A stretch of 64,000 nt of DNA from assembly GCF_026151205.1 (NCBI RefSeq), contig NC_087072.1:13058169-13122168 (forward strand), given 5' to 3'. The translations under genes were made by a program, and so were the position numbers. Positions 54,001 through 63,743 of the stretch are shown here, piece by piece. How positions within the stretch are numbered: position 1 is the stretch's first letter; every line of letters begins with the position of its first letter. Origin of the DNA: Bolinopsis microptera. Its lineage: Eukaryota > Ctenophora > Tentaculata > Lobata > Bolinopsidae. Under the pieces are notes generated by a model, which was given only the letters and a program-made list of their open reading frames with translations, was not told the DNA's origin and searched no databases.

Positions 54001-57000
54001 TGACTCACACACTAAATTTCATGAGAATTCAATATAAAGTTTCTTCAGAATTTATCTTTTAATTTTATATTTATACTTCTTTCATTTTTATGTTTCCTTG
54101 TTTATGATCATGGATTCAATATTAGATTTTCACTGTTCATCTTTTCAGGTTTAATGTTATTGAGTGGGGAAGTGTCGAGAGGGAGATGGGTTTGATAGCT
54201 GGTGGTGGCGACAATGGAGTTATTTCTCTCTGGGACCCCGTTAAAATTCTAAGGTACTGTACACGATGTTCAGTCATTTTGCATCATGGGGAAATTTCTA
54301 AATCGTTCATTTCAATCTGAGCTCGTTAACACTAATACTTTAGAAATAATTTTATTTTATTCCACAGTGGAGAAGAAGATGCCTTGGAATGTGAGCTCCC
54401 AAAACATTGTGGTCCTGTACGCTCAATGGATTTCAATCCTGCCAAGAAATGTTTGTTGGCATCTGGAGCTAGTGCTAGTGAGATTCATATTGTTGACATC
54501 AACAAACCTGATGTTCTCATGACACCTGGCCCAAAAGCACAGGTAAGCTCATCTTTGCTATGATACCTAACATTTGTGACAATAGTATTTTATACTGGGG
54601 CTCTTTGTCGACAATTTAAGAAGCAACTATTAATGTATCATCTGATGCAGCTATAAATTTCTGTTTTAAGAGTATCATCGAATCTTATGTTTTCCGGACA
54701 TGTATTCATATATATATTCCCAACGTTACTCAGCCAGAAGATGATGTGGTAGCTCTAGCATGGAACCAGCAAGTGGAGCACATCCTAGCATCTGCACACC
54801 CCAACTCAGCGCGCTCCATTGTATGGGACCTCAGGAAGAACGAGCCTATAATCCAAGTAACTGATGCCTCAAACCGTGTGAGATGCAGCTGCATTGCCTG
54901 GCACCCTGACGTAGCCACACAACTCCTAACTTGTTCAGACGAGGACAGATATCCTGTTATTCAGATGTGGGATCTCAGATTCGCTTCTGCTCCTACTATG
55001 GTTAGTTTGTCATCCGGCTCCTTTGTACAAAGTGATAATTAACGAAAAATAGGAAATATTGCCAAATCAAATATCTGAATTTTTAGCATTTTTAAAATTT
55101 TTACCATCAGGTATTTGAAGGACATGGTCGAGGTATCCAGACATTGGCTTGGTGTGGATGTGACAGCAGTATGTTACTTTCCAGCAGTAGAGATGATCAC
55201 ATGATCTGTTGGAATCCTAACAATACTAGTGTTCCTGGAGGAGAGGTGAGTTTTTGTCGGAATACAAAACGATTTAAGTACATAAGGGGTCGTTCACATA
55301 TTACGTAATCAATATTTTAGAAATTTTTACCCCCTTCCCCCCTTCCGTAATCAACCGTAATCAAGACCCAACCCCCCCCCCCCCCCCCCCCCCCCCCTTG
55401 ACTTTTTTCCTAGAAAACACTTTTCTCTACGTTTCATGCTACCCTGATCATGCTATCATGATGAGCCGAAATCATTGTTATAATATCCGGCCAAGCACCT
55501 TCTAAATTACTTATTATTATAGCAGGATATTCGATAAATTTCTAAATTTTATCACTATCAGAGTGAAATTGAGTGGAATTTGAATTAAAATATTGTCAAA
55601 TTGTTATTATTCTAGAGAGTAAAAAAGAAAATTTTGATTACGTAATCAACGACCGAAACCCCCCCCCCCCCCCCACCCGTAATCAACCGTAAGCATTTGG
55701 AAACCCCCCTCCCCCCTCGGCTGATTACGTAATATGTGAACGACCCCTAATTGATAATTATTAATTATGTATGTAAAGGATATAATTATGTAAAGATCTG
55801 AATACTGGTTGCAGGAGGTGAGTCATAATTGTCTCAACCTGGATAAAGTTGTTTAATAAGTAACTATTCATCAACTTATTAAAATGAAAGTTATAATATT
55901 ATTGACCAACTATTCTTTTCAGAAACTGGTAGAGTTCAATGCTCCAAGTCAGTGGACGTTTGATATGGGCTGGTGTGAAAGAAACCCTTATCTTGTTGCT
56001 TCCTCTGCGTTCTCTGGTAAACTTTCCGTGTTTTCTCTCTTTGGAGGACAAGAGGACATTCCTGAACAACCACAACGTGTAAGTGTGTTGCTTAATAAAG
56101 TGTTCTTCTGTCTGCTAGTTAGGTGTAAAGCACACCGAGATATTACTTTGTCCATTTTTATTTATTATTTCAGAACGTTGTAAATAACTTATTAATTAAC
56201 AACTAATTATCCACATGCCAGGTGCGAGTTAGCAGTGACCCATTTGCCCCTGGTCCACCCCCACCGTCTCTGCCAATGCACATTCCACTCCTTTCTCAGG
56301 CGCCCAAGTGGCTGATGAAACCTTGTGGTGGCTCGTTCGGTTTCGGTGGAAAACTCATCTCTTTTGACTCCAACTCTAATGAGGTAACTTACCACAAAAA
56401 TTCCATATTTGCAATAGTTCGTGTGTCTTCTGAACTAACAACTCAAATATTTAGTTTATTTCATAATAGAAATTTCAGATAACAGTGATGCAAGTTACAA
56501 CGGAATCAGAGTTGCTAGAAAGATCCGAGAAGTTAGAACAAGCTCTGCAGGAGAATACACTGCTTCAGTTCTGTAGTGAGAAAGCTGACGCTACTAACGA
56601 TACAAATGATAAACAGATATGGAGCTTTTTGAAGGTATGAGTTGTTGACTGTATAATGTATATTATTATAATCAGCTACTAGTGCTGGTTATACAACAGG
56701 CGCAAGGTTCCTGTACTATATTTCTGCAACACTATATTTAACAGGCGCAAGGTTCCTGCACTATATTTCTGCAACACTATATTTAACAGGCGCAAGGTTC
56801 CTGCACTATATTTCTGCAACACTATATTTAACAGGCGCAAGGTTCCTGCACTATATTTCTGCAACACTATATATAACAGACGCAAGGTTCCTGCACTATA
56901 TTTCTGCAACACTATATACAACAGGCGCAAGGTTCCTGCACTATATTTCTGCAACACTATATATAACAGGCGCAAGGTTCCTGCACTATATTTCTGCAAC

Positions 57001-58463
57001 ACTATATATAATTGCGACACGCATATATCACAATGTTATATCTTTGTCTTAATATATCTCTGTCACAATATAGTGCGGTAAGCTAATTAGTAATTACTTT
57101 AACATTTTATTTTCTCATCAGTCTACATTTGACGGTAAGCCGAGACAGCGATATCTAGAACTTCTTGGTTACAAAGCTGGAGACTTGAAGGAAATGGTAG
57201 AAAACTTAGCTGAGAGCGCTCCCACCTTATCAGAAAGTGTTGGTGAACTAACACTTGACAGTGACACCGCTATCATCAACAAGAGCGATGCTGAATCTAG
57301 TTCCAGTTCCGAGAAGGTATGATTTTACGTGTGTCTGTTTGTCAGTCAGCTCGTGACACTGACAGAAACGTGCTAGCTTTTCATGTGGTAAAGCACTTAA
57401 CACGTGCTCAACACGTGCTCAACACGTGCTTAACACGTGCTTAACACGTGTTTAACACGTGCTTAACATGTGTCCGCTCTTGACTCCCTTACTTGGCGGT
57501 CTCATGTATTCAGTACTATCTAGATGTTGTGGCCCCTAATCCTTGCCCATTAGTTGAGTCAAGAGCAAGCATGTCTGTTAGCAAGCATCTATCTTTAATG
57601 TTTCTCATTCCATCCTGTAAAAATGGTTATTATCTATCCATTGATGTGGCTAGATTACCATTTTATTTGGTATTCTTTTCTCTTGGGGCCATGATTTATA
57701 TCTAATTTTGGGTCTGACATGTTGAAATGGAAATTATATTTTGGGTAAACCTTTTGTAGGATTCAGACAAAGAAGAAGTATCTTCTGAAACTGAAGATGA
57801 TGTTGTTAAGGTAACGCAAATGGATCTGTTTAATATTCTGTACAGGCATCATGATCTTGGGGCTTTACTTTGTATTTTCTTTTAAATAATATTGTAATCC
57901 AGCTGTAGTGACTTGCTATCATGGAATACAAGTTTCCTGCTTGGTCTTATTTCTTATTTTCGTTGCATGGAGTTATAAGCCTGAAACTAATTGTACTTTC
58001 AGCTGGTGTTCAATGTGTGTGTGCTGTTTACTAATTTTCATAGCTTAAAATCTGTAACGCTGTAATGCTGACTGCTGTAGAGTATTACAGTAACTGGATA
58101 GTAACAATAACCATTGTAACCATAGTAGAGCCGGGTTATATACTACACAGTGCAATATATTCAAACGCTGAATACAACTGAAAGTTCATGCAGTTTACGT
58201 TTAAGGTTTTGTGTGTGATACTGAGTAATATATAATCTACAGTCAGTAATATACCTGTTTTCGTAATCATAATCATTGTTATCTAATTTTATTTTATTCA
58301 CTATATAATAATTTAATAGCAAGTAGTTCGAGGTATCGTCAGAGCTTAGTGATTATTTAATTTGGTTGACTAATGTTTCTGTTTCAGGTGACGGCGCCGA
58401 AACCGTTAGTAATAGACACCAGCATTGGAGTTGACGGTCTCATCTGCCGTGCAATGCTTCTAG
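48007..58463 (+). CDS. SEC31: SEC31, COPII outer-coat protein, exons 1-12 (5' part)
   Basis: Exons: 48007-48119, 48212-48301, 54149-54253, 54368-54542, 54734-55000, 55111-55245, 55923-56078, 56222-56383, 56479-56634, 57122-57316, 57760-57810, 58388-58463. They join in frame into 560 codons plus one base. The start [18 protein letters not shown] and later [47 protein letters not shown] and [12 protein letters not shown] match SEC31A in order and spacing. Seven WD repeats form the propeller, and the FGGKL region is where SEC31 gives a blade to SEC13. SEC31 and SEC13 make the outer cage of vesicles leaving the endoplasmic reticulum. Exon 12 matches the start of the alpha-solenoid ([14 protein letters not shown]). 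The remaining half was not found before the window ends. Intron 2 holds a full-size LINE. Confidence 0.92.
48370..49518 (+). CDS. LINE ORF1: AlkB-like dioxygenase fused to SGNH-esterase-like domain
   Basis: The open frame begins upstream inside SEC31 exon 2 (another frame); the first in-element ATG is at 48370 ([13 protein letters not shown]). Numbering from 48235, the AlkB-like part has [17 protein letters not shown], the iron ligands H117-S-D119, a distal H175 (WQHGIE) and R187-ISFTL-R193, matching the HxD...H...R-x5-R core of AlkB 2-oxoglutarate dioxygenases. A Pro/Ala/Thr linker follows. The second domain has [11 protein letters not shown]284-I-N-D287 and a D/H region (D374, H379 in GIHLY), like the esterase of CR1-type ORF1. 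The block I serine is kept (HDS) but the DxxH Asp seems replaced by H376. AlkB proteins repair alkylated nucleic acid; a role on the element RNA is only inferred. Confidence 0.75.
   Translation: MKHPGGRSTSYFGSVPYSYGRTNHRATHDKPLPPVLQRIFDCLHKSDPDITPTNYTCLCTYYKDGSVGIPLHSDSESSIVEDSLIYTASFGSTRIMRMSTSTGPFVEHNIPLEHGSVFAMSRSDQNHWQHGIERDPMLRQPRISFTLRKLKQPDPTALPAPAAPTRVPPVAPPTQIQSPTSRHSRVLFIHDSIHRETPEWLFDQIPGHRCQKRLNYQLVNSLEHQHEFKHSKAVVLSCGINDLARYGQSARSLADNFCPRFIDSCNNNKNTEFMFCALSMTKFNWLNAEIDAFNIIMLNLAKDIPNLSFFDAHAVIKRVNSYYVWDRNDRHGIHLYHEVQRVMAHELVNCVGKLCGSEQRRHRNCEWLYHHKPNSLSRYNRS
50149..53622 (+). CDS. LINE ORF2: PHD-like finger, endonuclease, reverse transcriptase (1,157 aa)
   Basis: The ATG at 50149 opens a 1,157-codon intact frame. 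Residues 15-52 have C15-x2-C18, C31-x2-C34, H39-x2-C42 and C49-x2-C52, a C4HC3 pattern like a PHD finger. The endonuclease follows with [33 protein letters not shown] and MSDHLAIVT. Reverse transcriptase blocks: [41 protein letters not shown] (D744 region), [13 protein letters not shown] and Y831-A-D-D834. Endonuclease and polymerase motifs look intact, so this copy could be active or only recently silenced. The layout belongs to the CR1/L2 side of LINEs. Confidence 0.9.
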   Translation: MEPTVTSENKVKIKCSSCSGWCYSIRNIRTCSWCQSNVHVKCFKDNLGCTSCCESIIPGFHATYYEIYDDYSKLNSDIFNPYDQNSRFNLIGDAMTNEEHQDSTWSNISSFLTSCQYKQQRNVKKSTCSQLKTFSMNIRSLIKNIDQLRDDIETYDKYDILCFNETNCTLGKLPNGINDVTLDGFHEPFIQDPIRPSGKGGGLATYVHKRVVDYDKIDIFTPNPEPTNTSGEFQFIKLHQCKGYNRTKIIGNVYRSPARRPEAFLEIFKNTLHNLGRHTRKHMTLHGDFNLDLLKHSSDQACQNIIDIASSYGFIQIVSRPTRLTDHSATLIDHIYTNNLEDTISCNVLTTDMSDHLAIVTTINLDNTPTSSYRSASNSQNVSQTETRRFNDTNNQKFRDLITDESWSEIFNNTNDANEQFNNLNTAYNKIYESAYPTKRQSRRQNERVNPKPWMLPWLEEAIERKNESYYDFVKEPSDSNRSKYDRLKKFCNKHIDKAKNKHFKKFFEQNKENSKKQWQMINSLLNRKKSKPTSIKLTDEDGSISTPAAVAEKFNDYFSNIAPKIKSEISSRTTFDPGGTHSTLRNATPSSIYLKPVTATEIQDVINLLKNKATLDTKIEPLKIANSCPSFTSVLAHVVNSSFEQGIFPQALKEAKVVPIHKGGSKSDIKNYRPISLLASFSKVFEKLMHNRVISFLDKYSILCENQYGFRPGRSCEHALLNAKDTILNSMSKKQVTLLLLIDFSKAFDLVDHSILLRKLDHYGIRGQALNWFKSYLTNRKQFVSIGSSKSSTNQILYGVPQGSILGPLLFIIYINDLPQISDIANFIMYADDANIFLIGENLNEVYDKLITLSDALVKWVDNNGLALNLKKTNYMIFSRQRNLNYRDVAISGVTIERKTEARFLGVIIDDKLNWSHHISAMKMKMSRYIGVMYKLKKYLPLEARLQIYQSFVQSHLNYCSLVWGFAAKSHIESLFVKQKMGLRAVLPGFVNYWYKDGIPPASTKSGFYSHKILTVHSIIVKNALILMHKLKNFPNLVPLSLKKTIPKSAPLFNTNLDSILTTQWSEKYGQHPYNNSVFFKGPLLAINRYNVAATSPPSLLNLNIYKTCIKTMLIDQQNENIEDDWPNFMLYCITGLRKSKRNINQNADNNLVSTS
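55286..55747. mobile_element. PIF/Harbinger-type MITE, 462 bp, in SEC31 intron 6
   Basis: Inverted ends of about 25 nt begin GGGGTCGTTCACATATTACG on both sides. TAA flanks each end (55283-55285 and 55748-55750). A TAA target duplication is typical of PIF/Harbinger elements. Inside are poly-C tracts near 55371-55397 and 55660-55675 and repeats of CCGTAATCAACCGTAA; there is no coding sequence. Confidence 0.75.
56699..57009 (+). repeat. 45-bp minisatellite, about 7 copies, in SEC31 intron 9
   Basis: The unit contains GCGCAAGGTTCCTGCACTAT, ATTTCTGCAACACTATAT and AACAG, with A/T changes in the last third between copies. Since 45 is a multiple of three, it produces a long open frame on the minus strand that is not a gene. 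Confidence 0.92.
57390..57475 (+). repeat. 11-bp array containing six CACGTG sites
   Basis: CACGTG occurs at 57401, 57412, 57423, 57434, 57445 and 57456, exactly 11 bp apart, in units like CACGTGCTTAA. It lies in SEC31 intron 10. CACGTG is the palindromic core bound by many bHLH factors. Confidence 0.9.
57811..58387 (+). other. SEC31 intron 11 (577 bp)
   Basis: AT-rich intron between the short 51-nt exon 11 (acidic, [14 protein letters not shown]) and exon 12. No element or gene recognised. Confidence 0.6.
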
Positions 58464-58677: not shown

Positions 58678-60239
58678 TTACATCTCAATTTCAAGATCCA
58701 GCGTGTAGCCTGGTTGAGGGAAGGACTCAGCCTCCATTGACACGTAGATAGCATAGTTACCGTACACTGGTCCGTTCTTGTACTTGTGCCCGTGGTCCTT
58801 ACCCTGAACTTTAACATCATCTTCTCTGCAGCCATTCTTCCAGCTGCAATCCTGGATGACAGAGGCGTCAGCTGTCCTGCTAGTACTGAATCTGTTGTTG
58901 GTTATTGGGTTGCAGTAGTAGTTGTTTCCAAGTCCGTGAGTGTTATCGTCATTTTCATTAGCTCCAGAGAGGTGTCCTCCAGTGAGGACTATTCTGCAGC
59001 CGTTATCACCAAACGCCCAGTTGAAAGCCAAGTCTCCGTCCACAGAGAAGATTGGGTCATCTTCCAAGTTTGTGGCGTTTACTGAGATAGATTCCTGGAT
59101 AGGTCCTCCTTTTGTTACTATCTGTCTGCCAGGGTTCTGGTTCTTGGTTCCGAACCTGTATTAAAATATTGAGTAACATTGTTGTACAAAAGTGGTTGTG
59201 TCAGTCTGATATTATTCATATAGAATGCAATAATAACAAGAACAATATTTCATCTTGAAGCAGAGTTTACCTGGTATAAAGAGAAGCGCCCCAGTATCTG
59301 AACTTGAAGACCTTGACAGCGTCCAGGACGCCCTGTTGATGTCTGACAATAGCGATGTATTTAGCTGGTTCATCCCAAACTCCTCCACTCAGATAGTCCT
59401 TAGTCAGGGCTTCTTCCTCACTTCCAATGTTGTCTCCTGTTGCCCACCCTGAGAAGTTATGAATGTTGAATGTCACTGTGTTGTGATTAGTTTATAATTT
59501 AGATTCATTTTCAAGGAAATATGTCAGAATATTGTCATAACTCTCTAATTTACTTACCAACAGTGTATCCAAATATGTGTCCATCAGATGGATTTATGTT
59601 CATTCCCAGACGCCATGTTCCACCATTTTCATTGTCCTTGTCTGCTTCAAGTTCTCCAATTCGTTTCTCCAATTTGACTTGGGTTTCTTCGAGTGCTTCT
59701 AGTTTGTTCTCCAACTCCACAAGTTCTCCCTCATAATGTTCTTGAACCTTTTCGAACTTGTCCTCCATATCTTCTTGAAGTTCCTCCACTACGCCATCAA
59801 GATTAGTCAGGTTTTTGTTGATTGCCTGTAGATTGTTATCGAGTGCCTCATATTTCTTCTCCAAGTTCTCTTCAACAAGACCTACTTTCATGTGTAGCTG
59901 TGTGATAGTCGTGTTCAGTTCCTTTTTTATATCGTCAACTTTTTCCTCCAGTTTCAAATGATTTTCTGCATTTGATGCAATCTCGTCTGTCACTGCGTCA
60001 TACTTTTGCTCCAACTGTTCCGAAACTGTAGTTATGCTGCCGTTCAGTTTCTTTTCTACATTCTCTAAATTCGTCTGCACTTGTTTCACATCTACTTCCA
60101 GTTGACTAGAAGTACTGTTCAGAACATTCACATCATTTCTTAGATCCTCCAAAATGCAGCCCAAGCAACTGCTCGCTAGAAATACCAGGGCAATTCCACC
60201 GTGACGGACACCACGATTATGCCATTTTTTAAAGTTCAA
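58678..60239 (-). CDS. Secreted coiled-coil protein, copy A (three exons)
   Basis: Exons 60239-59558, 59475-59271 and 59155-58678 (minus) join into 455 codons including the stop. After a hydrophobic start (IALVFLASSCLGC) comes a coiled coil of about 190 residues with many Asn-glycosylation-type sites (NST, NGS, NTT, NLT). A compact C-terminal region follows with WATGDNIGSEEEAL, FNWAFGDNGCRIVLTGGH and the end LDLEIEM. I do not recognise the C-terminal family; the layout suggests an exported oligomeric protein. The original start exon (ATG at 61812, MRVAVCLV) is cut off by a 1.6-kb transposon. The present in-frame ATG at 60239 lies inside that transposon and adds 17 residues. It is antisense to SEC31, probably within its intron 12. 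Confidence 0.75.
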
Positions 60240-61789
60240 ACGAATGTTGTGCTCAGGATGTTGCTTCTTTATCAGCTTAAACTATTTATTAGTCCACAGT
60301 TAACCTTTCTATAGGTTGTGTGAAAATTTCAGACCCCTACCATTATTACTTTCTGAGATAGCACCCCTGTGACGGACGCGACTTAAATATGACACTTTTT
60401 TTGGGTGTCTACTCAGAAGGTACCCAAATCTATCTCAAAACGTTATCTATTATCTCTAATTTGGACATGCAGTGATAGAAAAAGGTTTAGGGATTTCTGA
60501 GATACCATTTTTTTGGAGATTGCTCAGTTTTTGTTTGCGTGGCGCCATTTTCAAATTGTGACGGACGTGACTGTGACGGACACACGTTTTTTTTTCAATT
60601 TCTCCAAATCTTCTATTTGACACTATTATCTTGTTCAGTGACCTTCATTCTATATTTATGCCAATTTTTAGGCCGCTAGTACTTCCACGAGGTCTGCAAA
60701 AGCCAAAATCGTCCATTTTGGGCATACGCGAGGGTATCAATCTAGGGGCAGCAATTATTTCTCTACTTGAACAAATTTATAACTCTGGTAAAACATTCAT
60801 CTCTGTTCAACACATCACACTGTTGAGACCATCTCCCAAAAGTTTCATTACTTTAGTGTTTAAAATGTGGAAGATATTGAATTTTTACTTCAAAAATATG
60901 CGAAAATAGGGTTAAGTCCATTTTTTGTGCCTTTTACCCCTGAAAAAGGTTAAGGCAAATAAAATGGCAAAACTCAGTAAATTTAATTATTGAATTGCAT
61001 ATGATGTTATTTGATAGTCTAGTCAACATAGTCAAACCTTATTTGACTTCAATTTGTCTTGGTTTTAGTCAAAATAATGGAAATATGGATAAAAATGGCT
61101 AAAAGTGAGCCGTACGCCCATATATGGGCATATACAAAATTATACATAACTCAGTCATTTTCTGTCCAATTTTCGATTTGACAACATCGTTTTGTTAAGA
61201 ACGGTCTCAGCTTTAACAAAAATGCATTTAAAGTCTGTTAAAAGATTTTTTGGAGCATTTTCAAAAAAATGTGACGGACGCGACAAGTTGGGACCCCCCT
61301 TCCAAAAATTTTTTCTTAAAAGATAGAAGCCTGATAATTTCTACGGTACTCCCTTACCTTCAGAAGGGATAGGTTACAGTGGTTTTTTGAATATAAATAG
61401 CACTATGTGGCTCTGAAAAAACTTTTTTGCTTAATTTTGTGACGGACGCGACACCATCTTTGTGGAAATTTTTTAGAAAAATTATTTGAGTAACGGTTTT
61501 GAAACTTTGCATGGCTCTCATTCTTATGCCTATGCTTAAGTGTATGGAATTTCATAGAGAAATATTCCTGCATACCCAAACTATGGCCCTTTGAAAATTT
61601 GAATGATTTTTTTCATTTCCGAGTAATGTTCCTTTGAATGAGAAAAATCAAAAGTTAATGCAATATGAAACAAAAAACTTTTGTTGACCTGTAAGGTTAA
61701 GAGTCTAATGAACATATTTTAACCAAAATTAGGTGCCTATCTTAACATTTTTCATTTTCACCAAGTGGAACCTTACCGTGGAATTGCCC
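60188..61789. mobile_element. Non-autonomous DNA transposon, 1,602 bp, splitting copy A
   Basis: The ends are inverted (GGGCAATTCCAC at left, GTGGAATTGCCC at right). ACCA flanks both sides (60184-60187, 61790-61793). The intact paralog at 63.7 kb shows the empty site with a single ACCA, which proves the insertion. A 4-bp duplication does not single out one superfamily. The interior has at least five direct copies of GTGACGGAC, three as TGTGACGGACGCGAC (60368, 61269 and 61438 areas). No transposase frame was recognised. Confidence 0.85.
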
Positions 61790-61812
61790 ACCAGACATAC
61801 AGCAACTCTCAT
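61790..61812 (-). pseudogene. Orphaned start of copy A
   Basis: From the ATG at 61812 the minus strand reads seven codons (MRVAVCL) identical to the start of copy B, and then runs into the transposon. This is the original translation start and first part of the signal peptide of copy A. Confidence 0.85.
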
Positions 61813-62106
61813 TCTGTACTAATAACTGAAATAGTGGATTAGTTTTTTTCTTTCTAATAACAGCCAAGAAGATGGTCGTGCCTAAACAGCTTAATCTGAA
61901 ACATTTTAGCATCTTAACATGCTATTATGATTGACAACAAATCTATTAAATCAGTTAATAAGTACTTTAGCTGAGTTCAAATATGATGAAAATATTTTTA
62001 ACAAGATTCTAGTCTTGACATCTTTTCTTCTTCTTCTTCTGGGGTCACGAGTTTCCGGCCTCCAACATCAATCGTATCACTTAGTGTTTTATTAAAGGCA
62101 ATTCCT
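61813..62106. other. Spacer between copies A and B
   Basis: Holds the 5' flank of copy A and the 3' end of copy B. The sequence just upstream of the copy A start matches that upstream of copy B (CTAATAACTGAAATAGTGGA), as expected from a tandem duplication. Confidence 0.6.
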
Positions 62107-63743
62107 TTACATCTCAATTTCAAGATCCAGCTTGTAGCCTGGTTGAGGGAAGGACTCAGCCTCCATTGACACGTAGATAGCATAGTTACCGTACACTGGT
62201 CCGTCTGAGAACTGGATCCCGTGATCTGTACCCTGGATCTTTACATTCTTGTCTGTGCAGCCCTTCTTCCAGCTGCAATCTTGGATGTTGGACACATCGT
62301 GATTTCTATATTTGCTGAACGGGATATTTGTTCTTGGGTTGCAATGGAAGTCATTACCCAGTCCGTGGGTGTTATCGTCATTTTCATTAGCTCCAGAGAG
62401 GTGTCCTCCAGTGAGGACTATTCTGCAGCCGTTATCACCAAACGCCCAGTTGAAGGCCAAGTCTCCGTCCACAGAGAAGATTGGATCATCTTCCAAGTTT
62501 GTGGCGTTTACTGAGATAGATTCCTGGATAGGTCCTCCTTTTGTTACTATCTGTCTGCCAGGGTTCTGGTTCTTGGTACTGAATCTGTATTAAAATATTG
62601 AGTAAATAAGGAAAGTAAGATTGTTGTACAAAAGTGGTTGTGTCAGTCTGATATTATTCATATAGAATGCAATAATAACAAGAACAATATTTCATCTTGA
62701 AGCCATATTTGTAACCTGCGGAATTGAATTGTTTATTTGAATTTATCTGAAACTTATTTAACTTTTGACCTTCCGTTATTATAAAGTTTACCTGGTATAA
62801 AGAGAAGCTCCCCAGTATCTGAACTTGAAGACCTTGACAGCGTCCAGGACGCCTTGTTGATGTCTGACAATAGCGATGTATTTAGCTGGTTCATCCCAAA
62901 CTCCTCCACTCAGATAGTCCTTAGTCAGGGCTTCTTCCTCACTTCCAATGTTGTCTCCTGTTGCCCACCCTGAGAAGTTATGAATGTTTAATGTCACTGT
63001 GTTGTGACTTGTGACACAGTTAATTGCTTCTTATGGAAATATTGAATATTGTTAAATTCTTCTTCTCAACTAAAATAATTTGCCTCTAAACTTACCAACA
63101 GTATATCCGAATATGTGTCCATCTGATGGATTAATGTTCATGCCTAAGTGCCATGTGCCACTATTTTCATTATCATTATGTGCTTCAAGTTCTTCTGTTA
63201 TTTGCTCCAGCTTGACTAGAGTTTCTTCGATTGCCTCTATTTGTACTTCCAGTTCATCAAGTTCTTCCTCAAAATGTTCTTGAACTTTTCGAACTTGTCC
63301 TCCATGTCTTCGTGAAGTTCCTCCGCTTTGCCATCAAGATTAGTCAGGTTTTTGTTGATTGCCTGTAGATTGTTCTCGAGTGCTTCATATTTCTTCTCCA
63401 AGTTCTCTTCAACAAGACCTACTTTCATGTGTAGCTGTGTGATAGTGGTGTTCAGTTCCTTTTTTATATCGTCAACTTTTTCCTCCAGTTTCAAATGATT
63501 TTCTGCATTTGATGCAATCTCGTCTGTCGCTGCATCATACTTTTGCTCCAATTGTTCCGAAACTGAAGTTATGCTGCCGTTCAGTTTCTTTTCTACATTT
63601 TCTAAATTCATCTGCACTTGTTTCAAATCTATTTCCAGTTGACTAGAAGTACTGTTCAGAACATTCACATCATTTCTTAGATCCTCCAAAATGCAGCCCA
63701 AGCAACTGCTCGCTAGAAATACCAGACATACAGCAACTCTCAT
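62107..63743 (-). pseudogene. Secreted coiled-coil protein, copy B, with a one-base deletion
   Basis: Exons 63743-63096, 62996-62792 and 62584-62107 (minus) correspond exactly to copy A. The start MRVAVCLVFLASSCLGC is a complete signal peptide. The coiled coil is open until about 63285, where copy A has CCTTTT and copy B CTTTT on the plus strand; the lost base shifts the frame to a stop at 63237. Downstream, the correct frame is well kept to the end of exon 3, so the deletion is recent or a sequencing error. Exon 2 is identical in protein to copy A except for the first residues. Exon 3 contains a block of about 50 residues that differs strongly from copy A between identical flanks. Confidence 0.75.

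Follow-up and report, generated by a model that had tools for sequence, protein, structure and literature searches.

Copies of a gene that are nearly identical over most of an exon and differ sharply in one block of it raise the question of which part is unusual, the block or its surroundings. Such copies lie in a stretch of 64,000 nucleotides from the ctenophore Bolinopsis microptera (contig NC_087072.1, positions 13,058,169 to 13,122,168 of the forward strand; the whole stretch is called the window here). Two tandem copies (A and B) of a gene for a predicted secreted protein occupy the right end of the window on the minus strand, and a third (copy C, at L001:672-1728) is found outside it, 0.4 kb past its end. 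A sequence-only reading of A and B had suggested that the exon 3 block reflects diversifying selection or conversion from further copies, as in immune or self-recognition molecules. We compared the copies with each other and with their relatives in one assembly (264,652,675 bases in 232 contigs, taken without reads or alleles), and we consider it quite probable that gene conversion has left the block as an island of old divergence, a pattern of an already-known kind. Each copy has three exons (splice sites read by eye), of which exon 2 is 178 bases and exon 3 is 478 bases in A and B. Exon 1 opens with a signal-peptide-like start in all three copies, a long coiled coil comes next in A and B, and exon 1 of C is short. 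The parts that were compared in the window are as follows.

58678-59155, minus strand: copy A exon 3, stop codon at 58678-58680 (translation, family match, splice site by eye)
58774-58923, minus strand: copy A divergence block of 50 codons, a variable loop (codon comparison)
59271-59448, minus strand: copy A exon 2 (sequence comparison; splice sites by eye)
62107-62584, minus strand: copy B exon 3, stop codon at 62107-62109 (translation, family match, splice site by eye)
62203-62352, minus strand: copy B divergence block of 50 codons (codon comparison)
62792-62969, minus strand: copy B exon 2 (sequence comparison; splice sites by eye)
63096-63743, minus strand: copy B exon 1, with a signal-peptide-like start followed by a coiled coil (translation, frame comparison)
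63097-63285, minus strand: second island of old divergence, the 3' part of exon 1, with intron 1 adjoining (silent-site comparison)

Over the 156 exon 3 codons compared, A and B differed at 0 of 75 amino acids before the block, 24 of 50 within it, and 1 of 31 after it, i.e., at 1 of 106 codons outside the block; one further change (Gly in A, Ser in B) lies in the first few exon 3 codons, which are not in this count. The sharp boundaries and the roughly 24 differences described from the sequence alone were thus reproduced, and the block coordinates given there were right to within about 20 bases. Silent differences in the block reached 19.5 of 26.5 sites for A-B, 13.5 of 24.5 for A-C, and 13.5 of 24.3 for B-C (proportion of silent sites that differ [pS], 0.74, 0.55, and 0.55, respectively), versus 6.0 of 68.5, 5.0 of 68.5, and 1.0 of 68.3 in the exon 3 flanks (pS 0.09, 0.07, and 0.01). 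Fisher tests on rounded counts separated block from flanks in every pair (p = 3.4e-10 for A-B, 1.1e-6 for A-C, and 2.4e-9 for B-C), so that low flank divergence and high island divergence at silent sites, which a divergence island under gene conversion should show, were both found. Replacement differences in the block numbered 31.5 of 123.5 (A-B), 20.5 of 119.5 (A-C), and 25.5 of 119.7 (B-C), and the ratios of replacement to silent divergence (dN/dS) were 0.10, 0.20, and 0.25; the A-B block dS of 2.98 is near saturation. The tract edges are partly unshared: toward the end of the block, A and C nearly agree, and B differs from both. When a 401-base query was compared with the genome, B matched at 83% and C at 85%, and the next best match was 81% over 110 bases.

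Relatives in the same genome served as a control. Copy A exon 3 has 40 matching stretches in at least 33 separate places. For the exon 3 comparison, 21 sequences were tried (A, B, C, and 18 loci), and 16 had one open frame between two motifs; L013, L014, L016, L017, and L019, which lack such a frame, were left out, L010 was kept even though its upstream part is out of frame, and L018, L021-L031, and C11:10128578 were not part of the comparison. The 16 sequences gave 120 pairs, 117 of them outside A/B/C, with dS undefined for saturated pairs. Flank pS fell below 0.5 in exactly 3 of the 117, and in these block and flank pS were close: 0.06 and 0.04 for L005/L006, 0.27 and 0.31 for L003/L004, and 0.21 and 0.29 for L010/L012. 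It is therefore the flanks, rather than the block, that are the odd part of A/B/C. The excess of block over flank pS had a median of 0.09 in the 117 pairs (range, -0.32 to 0.45), compared with 0.65 for A-B, 0.48 for A-C, and 0.54 for B-C. Strong silent-site constraint in the flanks was rejected as an explanation, since median flank pS outside A/B/C was 0.75.

The same controls characterize the block itself. Its dN/dS was 0.30 in L005/L006, 0.43 in L003/L004, and 0.29 in L010/L012, versus 0.10, 0.13, and 0.25 in the respective flanks; constraint on the loop is weaker than that on the flanks in each of these three usable pairs. The proportion of replacement sites that differ (pN) was higher in the block than in the flanks in 116 of the 117 pairs, block pN/pS exceeded 1 in none of them, and most length changes of the family alignment fell in the block. 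These observations support a family-wide variable loop of changing length that is under purifying selection.

The mosaic extends beyond exon 3. Divergence had been described as confined to one block, but a second diverged coding stretch lies at the end of exon 1: between A and B, silent differences were 6.0 of 87.5 sites (pS 0.07) in the first 145 compared codons and 20.5 of 38.5 (pS 0.53) in the last 63, where pN was 0.123. In exon 2, with about 38 silent sites, A-B and B-C each showed 2 differences, and A-C showed 0 (of 38.2). The claim that near-identity includes the introns held only in part; aligned intron 2 of A and B is identical at 122 of 127 positions, but about 90 bases of B are missing from A, and intron 1 matches at 89 of 107. 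In the first 60 bases of the A-B 3' untranslated regions (UTRs), 22 of 34 aligned positions matched, which was not above shuffles (z = -0.4). Between A and C, intron 1 matched at 81 of 97 positions and intron 2 at 80 of 111, 8.5 of 21.0 silent sites differed in the exon 1 tail, and the 5' flanks (best match, 12 of 15) and 3' UTRs were without a match. The young-looking exons of A-C cannot reflect a young duplication, because the 5' flank, 3' UTR, and exon 1 tail differ strongly; the duplication thus predates what the flanks suggest for A-C, and this is less clear for A-B. Copy B is itself a mosaic, with an A-like 5' flank (86 of 96) and a C-like 3' flank (100 of 105), and the remaining flank pairings gave best local matches of 9 to 24 bases.

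Runs of identity between copies also exceeded chance. In a test that counts agreement at polymorphic sites against permutations, the longest identical run was longer than expected for A-B (p = 0.0003), A-C (p = 0.0001), and B-C (p = 0.0025), and 9 of the 12 runs listed had p values below 0.05 (the other three, 0.0854, 0.6162, and 0.1048). By eye, near-identity of the three copies continues upstream of exon 2 through the adjoining 35 or so bases of intron 1. Trees of the 16 sequences, in which the eight codons preceding the block were assigned to it, placed A, B, and C in one clade for the flanks (support, 0.97 with DNA and 0.96 with protein) and for the block (0.99 and 0.98). The order within the clade was unsupported with DNA (0.11 and 0.27), and the protein trees paired A with B for the flanks and with C for the block, at 0.90 each. 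Within the clade, block branches are long and flank branches are near zero. Since the three blocks form one clade, the trees show no sign of import from any other sampled member, and conversion into the block from further copies, as formerly suggested, finds no sampled donor.

Taken together, these data support homogenization of exon 2 and of the exon 3 flanks by exchange among the copies. A, B, and C are best explained as old tandem duplicates of one secreted-protein gene. Short exchanges, by gene conversion or unequal crossing-over, have probably left exon 2 and the two ends of exon 3 almost without differences, even at silent sites, while the 50-codon block, the exon 1 end, and portions of the introns and UTRs retain the old divergence. 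The block may persist because its divergence is too great for strand exchange or because selection purges converted copies, two routes that our data do not separate. Several points weigh against the divergence-island interpretation. The block counts of A/B/C rest on 24 to 27 silent sites, and the homogenized A-B tract on the 3' side is about 95 to 100 bases, which is short for conversion. Block pS exceeded flank pS by more than 0.3 in 8 of the 117 control pairs as well, all of them with flank pS of 0.60 or higher and silent sites near saturation. Besides, faulty assembly of near-identical copies could mimic part of the pattern in a single assembly, and for A-B alone, a recent duplication with import of old patches fits nearly as well.

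Such a history, with the block brought into young copies from members of the A/B/C clade that have since been lost or were not sampled, would explain the sharp block edges and why, between A and B, the 5' flank, the 5' part of exon 1, and the portion of intron 2 that aligns look young. We nevertheless regard it as unlikely for the locus as a whole, given the strongly different 5' flank, 3' UTR, and exon 1 tail of A-C and a clade of blocks (0.99 with DNA) with no sampled donor; import from a sampled paralogue likewise has no support in the trees. Diversifying (positive) selection on the block, of the kind known from immune or allorecognition molecules, would account for 24 of 50 amino acids differing between A and B, but silent divergence is higher still (dS 1.0 to 3.0 versus dN 0.20 to 0.31), and the dN/dS ratio above 1 that marks such a locus was not seen: values were 0.10 to 0.25 in A/B/C and 0.29 to 0.43 in the control pairs, and pN/pS stayed at or below 1 in all pairs outside A/B/C. 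Block silent sites are as diverged as those of an old duplicate (pS 0.55 to 0.74), an outcome that the sequence-only reading had itself named as refuting, so diversifying selection on the whole block is unsupported; by this whole-block, not per-site, measure (dN/dS 0.10 to 0.25), we reject it for the block as a whole and judge it highly improbable. Of the two processes that the sequence-only reading had named, diversifying selection on the block as a whole is therefore unsupported and conversion is supported, although conversion appears mainly to have homogenized the flanks rather than imported the block.

A variant of the divergence-island interpretation, not exclusive with it, is that selection keeps the block different because the loop sets the binding specificity of each copy and overwriting conversions are removed. 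This would fit a block that stayed diverged in all three pairs with both sides homogenized, the greater replacement divergence of the block in 116 of 117 pairs outside A/B/C, the varying loop length, and the resemblance to published divergence peaks, as far as the parts of those reports that we consulted go (PMC3924837, PMC3728101). However, a heterology barrier yields an identical picture, another old island (the exon 1 end and the adjoining intron 1) is without strong amino acid change (pN 0.123), dN/dS in the block lies well under 1, the three pairs depend on one another, and A and B look disrupted. That selection keeps the loops different is thus possible but unproven, and we rate it as somewhat unlikely. 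Two other candidates were set aside. Local hypermutation is not favored, as replacement changes are well under silent ones and the end of exon 1 is similarly diverged at silent sites, with mutation bias not specifically tested. A complementary DNA template is not favored because near-identity enters intron 1, by about 35 bases.

The condition of the copies bears on these alternatives. Copy C, the element within copy A, and the frameshift in copy B were all absent from the sequence-only reading. The remaining parts of copy A are as follows.

59558-60187, minus strand: coiled-coil portion of copy A exon 1, as far as the inserted element
60188-61789, no strand assigned: repeat element of 1,602 bp within the signal-peptide codons of copy A (junctions, ends, frames)
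61790-61812, minus strand: copy A start codon and first codons, severed by the element

The element has inverted ends matching at 14 of 15 bases and a 4-bp target duplication (ACCA), and it holds no stop-free stretch longer than 110 codons. Its first 906 bases were found at 40 scored places in the genome, including this one, of 86 candidates, with 29 other places at 98 to 99% identity and 10 at 90 to 92%. Six copies of GTGACGGAC occur on one strand of the element and none on the other. The frame of copy A from its own start codon terminates within the element, and exon 1 of copy B is one base shorter than that of A near 63285, which shifts its frame. A and B thus look disrupted in this assembly, and copy C, open through all three exons, may accordingly be the only working copy of the three. 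Either a true mutation or an assembly error may underlie the frameshift in B; for the published B. microptera genome, wtdbg served for assembly and pilon for polishing, according to the part of that report that we consulted (PMC10232365), so one-base errors are possible if it is the same assembly. If A and B have lost function, the low dN/dS of the block suggests that this happened recently.

As for the identity of the family, open intronless reading frames of the same protein occur at nine loci (L005-L009, L011, L012, L015, and L020) spread over six contigs (C3, C4, C5, C6, C9, and C11), several of them with signal-peptide-like starts; these are apparently retrocopies. So many open retrocopies are unusual. 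The end of L012 diverges from the other intronless members, and many other family places hold stops, frame breaks, or fragments. The whole protein matched 41 Pfam families at expectation (E) values up to 1, none of the 25 best reaching its curated cutoff and all 25 lying within residues 4 to 198, essentially the coiled-coil part, and the domain alone matched 0 families at E values up to 10 in three of three members. No match to NCBIfam was found with 14 members, and a PDB search by sequence gave no relative. The family profile gave one PDB match at E values up to 10, ribosomal eS25 (E 0.1), which was taken as chance. Scans of prokaryote and viral contigs returned 20 and 25 pattern-matching stretches and no relative. 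An AlphaFold model of exon 3 alone, made without an alignment, was unusable (mean predicted local distance difference test score, 34.2). We infer from the sequence that the protein may be secreted and oligomerized by its coiled coil, with a C-terminal domain that would bind something through the variable loop.

A resemblance to intelectins, with a similar motif order by eye, is presumably a lead only, membership not being shown. Intelectins and fibrinogen-related lectins are secreted, as the A/B/C family appears to be, and in a profile-profile comparison (hhalign) one stretch of 37 columns aligned with three intelectins (P 0.049; probability, 1.1%). Unlike intelectins, the family domain has no Pfam match, and its profile found no intelectin at E values up to 10 in the PDB, which holds four intelectin sequences. 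Querying this genome with a Xenopus intelectin yielded no match; for want of a positive control, that negative says little. A preprint, consulted in part, reports thirty-one intelectin-like genes in a placozoan (PMC11452194). We found no earlier work naming this family in the literature on ctenophore intelectins or, by the titles listed, on tandem gene conversion in ctenophores.

The three copies lie antisense inside one intron of a SEC31-like gene, whose exons on either side were read by eye and whose WD40 exons within the window gave Sec31A as a match (E 1.8e-52, PDB search with a WD40 query); a 47-residue peptide of this host gene matched only designed repeat proteins in the PDB.

58388-58463, plus strand: exon of the SEC31-like gene on the upstream side of the A/B/C intron (by eye)
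L001:2549: next exon of the SEC31-like gene (by eye)

Other features of the SEC31-like gene introns are a tandem repeat at 56645-57056, with a 45-base unit in about seven units, and a segment at 55287-55749, probably another small mobile element, which contains long runs of C and whose ends seem mutually inverted over about 25 bases (by eye). Past the window, a membrane-receptor-like minus-strand frame lies in the next intron of this gene (L001:3170-4370, by eye).

Divergence islands of this kind have precedents. For RHCE/RHD and the red and green opsins, selection has reportedly been proposed to remove conversions that overwrite the divergent patch. In the reports as far as we consulted them, divergence peaks between converting duplicates are known from both theory and cases, and their persistence is attributed to selection or to sequence differences that block conversion (PMC3924837, PMC3728101). 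RHCE/RHD, exon 5 of the red and green opsins, and Tigriopus GOT1 are, in the same partly consulted reports, like A/B/C in having a coding divergence peak in low surroundings between linked, exchanging copies (PMC3924837, PMC3728101). Unlike these systems, A/B/C comprises three copies, with more than one island, two apparently disrupted members, and no known functional difference.

Near-identical genes with one divergent patch are easily misread as hotspots of rapid selection. Silent sites at this locus show the reverse, the patch being old and the remainder recently made alike, and relatives in the same genome provide the control. More broadly, this ctenophore family, with about 30 secreted members that are partly coiled coil, might use the exon 3 loop as a recognition surface, with selection removing loop-erasing conversions between tandem copies, although we regard this extension as doubtful. 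If it is true, the scaffold would evolve in concert alongside loop diversity that is preserved, not accelerated. If the spared loop is a binding surface, this family could serve to test whether selection resists gene conversion in a ctenophore, a member of an early-branching animal lineage.

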